Both the position numbers and the translations under genes were made by a program. This document shows positions 30,916 through 31,951 of a stretch of 47,864 bases of DNA, in pieces; the stretch's first letter is position 1, and every line of letters begins with the position of its first letter. Where the stretch lies: positions 1 to 47,864 of the forward strand of contig DVED01000141.1 of NCBI GenBank assembly GCA_015295945.1, given 5' to 3'. The stretch is from Oscillatoriales cyanobacterium M59_W2019_021 (lineage in GTDB: Bacteria; Cyanobacteriota; Cyanobacteriia; Cyanobacteriales; Geitlerinemataceae). The notes beneath the pieces were generated by a model. The model had not been told where the DNA came from. It saw nothing but the letters and a program-made list of their open reading frames with translations, and ran no database searches.

Positions 30916-30945
30916 CCCATTACCCATCACCCATTACCCATTACC
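30916..30945. repeat. CCCATTA heptamer array
   Basis: Four copies of CCCATTA/CCCATCA in tandem, ending four bases before the ATG of the ferredoxin-cyclase gene, so it covers the place where a ribosome binding site would be expected. Confidence 0.8.
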
Positions 30946-30949
30946 AACA

Positions 30950-31951
30950 ATGCCGATAGTTCGCTGTTTGCCCGATTCTTGCTCGATCGAAATGAGCGAG
31001 TCCGATACGATTTTAGACGCGCTGGTGGCGGAAGAAATTCCCCACACTCACGTCTGCGGGGGCAATGCCTATTGCTCGACTTGTCGGGTGATGATTCTGG
31101 AAGGAAACCAGCATTGCAGTCCGCCTACTTCTGTGGAGAAAGCGCTGGCGAAAAAGTTGGATTTTCCCGTTCACATCCGACTGGCTTGCCAAACCCGCAT
31201 TTCGGGCGATGTATCCATTCGTCGCTTGGTTTTGAATGATGAGGATATCGACATTGTTGACAGCCAAATGTCGGTGGGATTTATCGGGCGTCAGCGGTCT
31301 GTGGGGATTTTATCAGCCCGGATTCGCGGGACGACGAATTTCGACGAAGCGAATTTTCCCTACGACATTATCTATGTGATGAGCCGCTATTTTCACCGAA
31401 TGGATAAAGTCATTGGCGAATATGGCGGCGTTATTAACAACTATACGGGTTGGCGGTTGATGGCGCTCTTTGGGACGGAAGACGACGATCGCGTTCCGGA
31501 GCGATCGGTTTGGGCGGGATTAGAAATGTTGAAAGCTTTACAAGAACTGAATTCTGACCTTTCTAAACTGTCTTACAATCCCCTCAATCTCAGTATCGGC
31601 GTTCACTACGGAACGGCAATTATACTTCCGGTGAGTTGTTCTGCCGGGATGCAGAGAATTACCGCACTGGGAAGGGCGATCGAAGTGGTGGGTCGCGTGG
31701 AATCGGCGAATCGCAAGTTAGGCAGCGAATTGTTGGTTTCCAATTCGATTTACAAACGGTTACCTCAACCGCCTGTCATCCATCGCCACGGCGAGATCGA
31801 CGTGACGAAAAAAGGGACGAAGTATCCTGTTTTTGAAGTGATTCAGATGGTCGGAGATCCGCCGGAAAAGCCGGAAAAAACGACCGAGCAAAATACTCCC
31901 TTGGGGCAACGGATTGCCGCATTTATGCAGAAGTTCGGGCGATCGCGGTAG
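30950..31951 (+). CDS. [2Fe-2S] ferredoxin domain fused to degenerate class III nucleotide cyclase domain
   Basis: A 333-residue soluble protein. Residues 1-95 form an adrenodoxin-type ferredoxin with ligands Cys36, Cys42, Cys45 (CX5CX2C) and Cys80 in IRLACQTRI. Residues about 115-300 align with the class III adenylate/guanylate cyclase domain. The two metal-binding aspartates are lost: the LFADIRG-type motif reads LSARIRG (Arg124) and the GDA-type motif reads TGWRLMALFG (Trp168). In the GDxVNxxxR motif the sequence is GRAIEVVGR, so the catalytic Asn is Glu, although the Arg is kept. The cyclase half is thus probably a non-catalytic binding or dimer domain read out by the iron-sulphur redox state. 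Function unknown; the domain identities are clear. Confidence 0.85.
   Translation: MPIVRCLPDSCSIEMSESDTILDALVAEEIPHTHVCGGNAYCSTCRVMILEGNQHCSPPTSVEKALAKKLDFPVHIRLACQTRISGDVSIRRLVLNDEDIDIVDSQMSVGFIGRQRSVGILSARIRGTTNFDEANFPYDIIYVMSRYFHRMDKVIGEYGGVINNYTGWRLMALFGTEDDDRVPERSVWAGLEMLKALQELNSDLSKLSYNPLNLSIGVHYGTAIILPVSCSAGMQRITALGRAIEVVGRVESANRKLGSELLVSNSIYKRLPQPPVIHRHGEIDVTKKGTKYPVFEVIQMVGDPPEKPEKTTEQNTPLGQRIAAFMQKFGRSR

Follow-up and report, generated by a model that had tools for sequence, protein, structure and literature searches.

Does a protein that joins a [2Fe-2S] ferredoxin domain to a class III nucleotide cyclase domain without metal-binding aspartates still act as an enzyme, or has it been kept for something else? 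The question is raised by one gene in a 47,864-nucleotide stretch of DNA from Oscillatoriales cyanobacterium M59_W2019_021 (contig DVED01000141.1), which is called the window below. An initial annotation, made from the letters of this DNA, had given the coordinates and the strand of the open reading frame correctly.

A ferredoxin–cyclase protein without metal aspartates

In the 333-residue protein, Pfam recognized Fer2 at residues 10–84 (E = 7e-10, above the cut-off) and Guanylate_cyc at residues 115–288 (E = 1.2e-10, 41.7 bits against a cut-off of 21.9). The Fer2 domain stands directly ahead of the class III cyclase domain, which is the domain order of the CyaC type, and the six-helix di-haem membrane domain is absent, the open reading frame beginning at the Fer2 domain. 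The best NCBIfam match of the ferredoxin half was fdx_isc, with a score of 37.8 bits that lies under that family's own cut-off of 132.1. In ISC/adrenodoxin-like [2Fe-2S] ferredoxins, the cysteines follow the pattern C-X5-C-X2-C with the fourth about 35 residues further on, and the C-X5-C-X2-C-X34-C of the window protein agrees with this spacing.

The initial annotation had described the cluster cysteines Cys36, Cys42, Cys45 and Cys80 as intact, which the Pfam match and the alignment bear out. It had also taken Arg124 and Trp168 as replacements of the two metal aspartates and Glu245 as the replacement of the catalytic Asn, and the alignment to intact relatives puts all three residues at these positions. 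The transition-state Arg249 is nevertheless kept, and so is Thr238. Asn164 occupies the position of the substrate-binding Lys; since Asn also stands there in 50 of the 73 intact relatives, it does not point to decay. All features are located in Table 1.

Table 1. Features of the gene and of its predicted protein, with positions in the window.
Feature	Position	Strand	Basis or remark
Putative Fer2-pseudocyclase gene	30950..31951	+	333 aa; start ATG, stop TAG included; frame unbroken, internal stops absent
[2Fe-2S] ferredoxin domain (predicted), aa 1–94	30950..31231	+	Pfam Fer2; C-X5-C-X2-C-X34-C
Cys36 codon, putative cluster ligand position	31055..31057	+	Alignment to intact relatives
Cys42 codon, putative cluster ligand position	31073..31075	+	Alignment to intact relatives
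Cys45 codon, putative cluster ligand position	31082..31084	+	Alignment to intact relatives
Cys80 codon, putative cluster ligand position	31187..31189	+	Alignment to intact relatives
Linker between ferredoxin and cyclase, predicted helix 97–109	31232..31285	+	AF2 secondary structure; some 4 residues shorter than in most intact cyanobacterial forms
Predicted class III cyclase-fold domain, aa 113–302, metal aspartates absent	31286..31855	+	Pfam; Foldseek and VIA-align on the predicted model
Arg124 codon at metal-aspartate position 1	31319..31321	+	Alignment to intact relatives
Asp132–Phe136, core of the clade-specific motif FDExNF	31343..31357	+	Residue counts, clade against intact
Trp168 codon at metal-aspartate position 2	31451..31453	+	Alignment to intact relatives
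Tyr209 codon, clade-specific invariant	31574..31576	+	29/29 aspartate-less, 0/73 intact
Glu245 codon at catalytic Asn position	31682..31684	+	Asn in 73/73 intact, 17/29 aspartate-less
Arg249 codon, transition-state Arg kept	31694..31696	+	Arg in 73/73 intact, 19/29 aspartate-less
C-terminal tail with predicted helix 318–331	31856..31948	+	Predicted structure

The structure predicted by AlphaFold2 from a 20-row alignment had a mean pLDDT of 80.7, with low values at the cluster loop (37–41) and at residues 311–315. When Foldseek was run with this model, the top match was 2w01, with a TM score by target length of 0.85 for 2w01_B, the match lists concerning the cyclase half. VIA-align of the model against 2w01_A gave a Z-score of 25.1 and an rmsd of 2.5 over 191 aligned residues. 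The aspartate-less half is thus predicted to have the class III cyclase fold. Among solved structures, sequence comparison matched the ferredoxin half best to the ferredoxin 1i7h and the cyclase half best to class III cyclases that include Cya2 (2w01).

Tandem CCCATTA-like heptamers lie just 5′ of the start codon (30916–30941), and the window holds 10 copies of a 12-base pattern of such heptamers, with one mismatch permitted, where 0.13 would be expected. The promoter scan was at chance level (1 found, mean 1.3), and the terminator scan gave 4 hits, the mean being 2.1 (sd 1.5).

Relatives and origin of the aspartate-less forms

Searching 59 whole genomes brought up five further full-length Fer2-cyclases, of which L002 and L003 are degenerate and three are canonical: L004, L005 and a paralogue from the window's own genome, L038. 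This intact Fer2–class III cyclase is encoded on contig C18 of G000 (1336–2403 of L038, minus strand) and has both Asp residues, the Asn and the Arg. A scan of the public genome collection with the single protein returned no matches; a search of public genomes with a six-row alignment returned 248 relatives from cyanobacteria and many other phyla, the best 80 of which were retained. For classification, we used rows whose match started before model position 40 (45 in the final classification) and ended beyond 240, leaving out partial ones such as L115, and 37 of 51 newer loci were merged as repeats of known sequences over 250 residues. The first classification comprised 88 distinct full-length rows, 68 with both aspartates and 20 with neither. 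In the enlarged set of 102 distinct full-length relatives, 73 have both aspartates (the intact forms), 29 have neither (the aspartate-less forms) and none has a single one. Although the two classes are defined by the metal-aspartate positions themselves, the division is not circular, since no sequence has a single aspartate and the tree puts all aspartate-less forms on one side of a branch. The four cysteines are complete in 101 of the 102 relatives, the exception (L227) starting at a contig end, and their C-X5-C-X2-C-X34-C spacing is found in 29 of 29 aspartate-less forms. Both transition-state residues are present in all 73 intact forms; among the 29 aspartate-less ones, Asn is retained in 17, Arg in 19 and both in 11.

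Among the best 80 of 248 and the surveys, all aspartate-less forms are cyanobacterial records save one contig labelled Chloroflexaceae in the public record (L072, the same contig as G022:C214), and this label looks wrong, the genome being assigned to the same order as the window. One aspartate-less form, L260 (2991–4862, minus strand, G731), has a frame that continues upstream to 624 residues, as a possible fusion or an assembly artefact. A protein search of a plasmid collection gave 193 records, mostly from Rhizobium and Sinorhizobium and also from Hymenobacter, Burkholderia and others, all of them below 60% identity; in 11, the match spans 80% or more of the query.

The possibility that the window copy is a lone decayed variant among canonical orthologues, which the initial annotation had itself raised, is ruled out, as the loss of the aspartates is common to a clade of 29 distinct sequences. 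On whether the same substitutions recur in orthologues, which it had proposed to check by alignment, the answer is divided: loss of both aspartates is shared throughout the clade, but the exact replacements differ, with T, S, G, A, R, K or N at metal site 1 and V, N, L, F, G, T, W, H, K, M or S at metal site 2.

In a maximum-likelihood tree of the 88 rows, the 20 aspartate-less forms fell on one side of a branch with a support of 100/100, which, together with the lack of any sequence with a single aspartate, indicates that the loss is more than chance or sequencing error. Label shuffles matched the division between the two classes on the tree in 0 of 500 cases. A second tree was built from 60 rows, comprising all 29 aspartate-less forms, 15 of 38 intact cyanobacterial and 16 of 35 other intact sequences, with the root chosen on the other phyla. 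Here the 29 forms make one clade (100/99), recovered in 100% of 200 bootstrap trees and, with this root, nested within the cyanobacterial Fer2-cyclases beside two intact ones, L244 and L247, from G704 and G729. The branch uniting these two with the clade has a support of 99/91, and the branch that makes L244 the nearest is weak (92/59). The linker from residue 99 to the metal site has 24 residues in 27 of 29 aspartate-less forms and 28 in 35 of 38 intact cyanobacterial rows, and L244 and L247, though intact, carry the 24-residue linker. Because these intact neighbours share it, the shorter linker probably came first, followed by a single loss of both aspartates. On the tree, the Asn requires eight changes and the Arg three. 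Judged from sequence, then, the aspartate-less forms are an old family of single origin found in cyanobacteria.

Constraint, distribution and neighbourhood

Several residues set the clade apart. D132 and Y209 are found in 29 of 29 aspartate-less and 0 of 73 intact forms, F136 in 29 of 29 against 1 of 73, and L25 in 28 of 29 against 1 of 73; P73 is also invariant in the clade (29 of 29), yet occurs in 14 of 73 intact forms. In place of Gly226, which all 73 intact forms have, the 29 aspartate-less ones invariably carry V, L, I or M. The residue preceding Cys42 is Arg in 38 of 38 intact cyanobacterial sequences and Tyr (19 of 29) or Ala (6 of 29) in the clade; removal of this positive charge from the cluster loop might lower the potential of the cluster. 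With no metal aspartates, the four cysteines, D132, F136 and Y209, the window protein fits the Fer2-pseudocyclase clade in its residues as well as in its tree position.

We compared selection on the two halves as the ratio of summed dN to summed dS (NG86, simple method), the pairs within a group not being independent. Among six Pseudanabaena aspartate-less forms (15 pairs), dN/dS was 0.029 for Fer2 and 0.067 for the cyclase half; the single aspartate-less pairs L060/L061 and L074/L077 gave 0.107 and 0.135, and 0.057 and 0.085, respectively. Ten intact Microcoleaceae sequences (45 pairs) gave 0.088 for Fer2 and 0.060 for the cyclase. By these ratios, which come from aspartate-less pairs other than the window gene, the cyclase half is plainly constrained among close relatives. 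At a Fer2 identity of 0.6–0.7, the identity of the cyclase half is 0.41 between aspartate-less forms (49 pairs) against 0.64 between intact cyanobacterial ones (214 pairs), and this faster divergence over deep time fits a partial relaxation. The initial annotation had proposed a conserved cluster half next to an unconserved enzyme half, and this holds in part: conservation of the former is borne out and the latter is very probably dead, but, given its modelled fold, the purifying selection in close relatives and the clade-specific invariants, it is not simply unconserved.

In the alignment searches, where only 5 or 12 candidates each were scored for most genomes and carrier counts are lower bounds, at least eight of 386 genomes drawn evenly across the phylum have the aspartate-less form and at least nine the intact form, one of these having both. 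In the set of 741 genomes (G000–G740), which includes orders picked for holding the aspartate-less form, the corresponding numbers are at least 28 and at least 30, with both in two genomes (G000 and G704) against 1.1 expected by chance (P of at least two 0.31, kinship ignored). An intact Fer2-cyclase as an obligate partner is not supported, as it was not found in 26 of the 28 carriers among the candidates scored. Among those scored in the 13 other genomes of the window's family, there was no match.

A search with the class III cyclase domain family (PF00211) in 11 genomes, nine of which carry the pseudocyclase, found at least one other match in each. There are 17 matches in the window's own 5-Mb genome (G000). 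In G213 and G362 there are two each, namely the pseudocyclase and one FHA-cyclase with catalytic residues, which we take to resemble Cya1 of Synechocystis; should a class III cyclase be the partner, this FHA-cyclase, as the sole other match, is the only candidate seen in these two genomes. Degenerate domains can escape the same search, which did not list the pseudocyclases of G022 and G273.

The neighbours of the window gene include ndhH, guaB3 and hemL. A conserved operon or partner gene was rejected, neighbours recurring among the fetched loci mainly inside Pseudanabaena. In that genus the gene belongs to an island (L064, L066, L067, L068, L069, L071, L169) that also has genes for a GMC oxidoreductase, a glyoxalase-like and a DUF5996-like protein, not every locus having all of them, and the contig of the L069 pseudocyclase is labelled plasmid. 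Two genes, a DUF4079 gene and one for a protein of 125–133 residues, are common to three Pseudanabaena loci and G125. The DUF4079 gene adjoins the pseudocyclase in G125 (L164, 9046–9759) and lies about 3.4 to 7 kb off in Pseudanabaena (L064, 3866–4570; L066, 402–1106; L069, 1896–2600). Other shared neighbour families (histidine kinases, ABC proteins, short-chain dehydrogenases and single pairs) stand in varying places.

G138 encodes a lone 88-residue ferredoxin-like protein without a cyclase domain (L155, 1480–1746, minus strand), which ends just past the fourth cysteine. It is closest to the Fer2 half of the aspartate-less clade, with a best identity of 60% to L058, and may be a remnant or an end point of the loss of the cyclase half.

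Candidate functions and known systems

Because both metal ligands are gone in every member, cyclase activity is very unlikely in the clade of the window protein. We favour, with a probability of roughly 0.55, the reading that this protein is a [2Fe-2S] pseudocyclase of an old, single-origin family that acts by contact and not by catalysis. An intact soluble Fer2–class III cyclase would have lost both metal aspartates once, and the product would have been retained as a non-catalytic protein. Its [2Fe-2S] domain, with a cluster assumed from the cysteines, would respond to the cellular redox state, the retained cyclase fold would serve as a dimer and a partner-binding module, and the redox state would be relayed through protein contact with no cAMP or cGMP made. 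In its favour are the single clade, the complete cysteines, the low dN/dS in close relatives, the clade's own invariants, the modelled fold and the published example of the Fer2-bearing CyaC, which is redox regulated and binds regulators of transcription. Against this reading stand the patchiness of the gene among evenly drawn genomes, a neighbourhood that is unshared beyond Pseudanabaena, the two genes of G125 excepted, the faster divergence of the cyclase half over deep time, and the ascription of the redox response of CyaC to haem groups in a membrane domain that the window protein lacks. More tentatively, the cyanobacterial clade may be one of cyclase-derived redox sensors that signal without a cyclic nucleotide, with a contact module (FDExNF, Tyr209), once a cyclase domain, handing the state of the [2Fe-2S] cluster directly on to a target; this could be a regulator of transcription or an active FHA-cyclase.

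The initial annotation had suggested a sensor that binds a nucleotide or a partner cyclase. As a regulatory subunit, the protein could indeed pair with an active class III cyclase in a mixed dimer and confer redox sensitivity on it, either by completing one active site, in the manner of the second half-site of mammalian cyclases, or by blocking it. Asn and Arg are, after all, kept together in part of the clade, and the Arg needs few changes on the tree, which is what an ancestor that still acted as a second half-site would lead one to expect; the window genome also has an intact Fer2-cyclase paralogue and many class III domain matches, and the FHA-cyclase with catalytic residues is the one known candidate left in each of G213 and G362. 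However, the Asn has changed repeatedly on the tree and is Glu in the window copy, which argues against this copy completing the active site of a partner, and an intact Fer2-cyclase goes with the aspartate-less form in two carriers, close to the chance expectation with kinship ignored. We therefore regard the mixed dimer as unlikely. An electron-transfer ferredoxin for which the cyclase fold is a passive scaffold for dimerisation or docking seems improbable to us. Such a carrier would agree with the stronger constraint on the Fer2 half in Pseudanabaena, the likeness of the ferredoxin half to ISC-type ferredoxins (fdx_isc, 1i7h), the related Fer2 domain without a cyclase in G138 and the oxidoreductases around the gene in Pseudanabaena; but purifying selection acts on the cyclase half, which carries its own invariants, the G138 domain, ending where it does, may be a remnant, and the loci compared show no linkage of a reductase or acceptor gene across lineages.

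It is highly improbable that the protein remains an enzyme, one with a changed active site and a different chemistry. The fold kept in the model, the retention of Arg249 and Thr238 and the low dN/dS in relatives would suit it, but both metal ligands are gone in all 29 forms and the replacements vary widely, which argues against a new active site, where fixed residues would be expected. Hardly credible is a decaying copy without function: catalytic residues have been lost and the distribution is patchy, but the frame is open without stops, the gene belongs to one clade of 29 with shared invariants, and dN/dS is low in close aspartate-less relatives, pairs outside which the window gene stands with no close relative among those collected.

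Regulatory dead relatives are well known for kinases and for GGDEF/EAL proteins; for bacterial class III cyclases, we are aware of no conserved class of dead forms that compares with these, and the open-licence literature searched yielded none. If the clade does consist of redox sensors that signal without a cyclic nucleotide, it would parallel, among cyclases, the signalling by degenerate GGDEF/EAL proteins or pseudokinases. The sequences can be arranged in a series that runs from long-linker intact Fer2-cyclases through the short-linker intact L244 and L247 to the 29 forms without a metal site, in which Asn and Arg are variably kept. Since members occur in named Pseudanabaena strains, the retention of a cyclase domain for redox signalling after the loss of catalysis is directly testable.

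Asymmetric class III pairs are found in mammalian C1/C2 cyclases and in soluble guanylate cyclase, in which one half-site lacks the metal aspartates and keeps the residues it gives to the shared site. In contrast to such partners, the aspartate-less clade has lost the Asn in 12 of 29 members and the Arg in 10 of 29, and in the window copy (E245/R249) the transition-state pair of a C2-like half-site is incomplete. According to PMC4886424, the metal aspartates of class III cyclases are indispensable and come from one subunit, the remaining residues coming from the second, and established cyclases exist without the transition-state Asn. On that account, loss of the Asn alone would be no proof of death.

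A search of the open-licence literature, judged mostly by titles and abstracts, found no description of a Fer2-pseudocyclase or of the aspartate-less clade. The Fer2-cyclase architecture is already known from S. meliloti CyaC, which PMC10463352 presents as a redox-responsive adenylate cyclase that forms complexes with the transcription regulators Clr and CycR. Its response is ascribed there to two haem-B groups in a membrane domain of six helices, and a figure legend marks a [2Fe-2S] cluster. As the response is ascribed to haem and not to the cluster, that paper gives no direct precedent for cluster sensing, a role that should not be presumed. The CyaC it describes is an active cyclase with a haem membrane domain, whereas the window protein has neither the membrane domain nor the metal aspartates. 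A protein annotated as CyaC on pSymB of S. meliloti (L266, maybe not the SMc01818 protein of PMC10463352) has Fer2 at residues 266–331 and the cyclase at 362–543, keeps both aspartates and aligns with the window protein over Fer2 and cyclase at 30% identity.

For the cyclase half, the closest solved fold is that of the Cya2 guanylyl cyclase (PDB 2w01; 22–24% identity), and CyaC of Spirulina platensis (PDB 1wc0–1wc6; 19–20%) is also close, the matched chains of both being without Fer2. The intact soluble Fer2–class III cyclases (73 rows, among them L038, L099 of Microcoleus vaginatus and L108 of Polyangium) share the domain order and cysteine spacing of the window protein, and many are of similar length. 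They differ in keeping the aspartates, the Asn and the Arg, and the cyanobacterial ones mostly have the 28-residue linker in place of the 24-residue linker of the aspartate-less forms.
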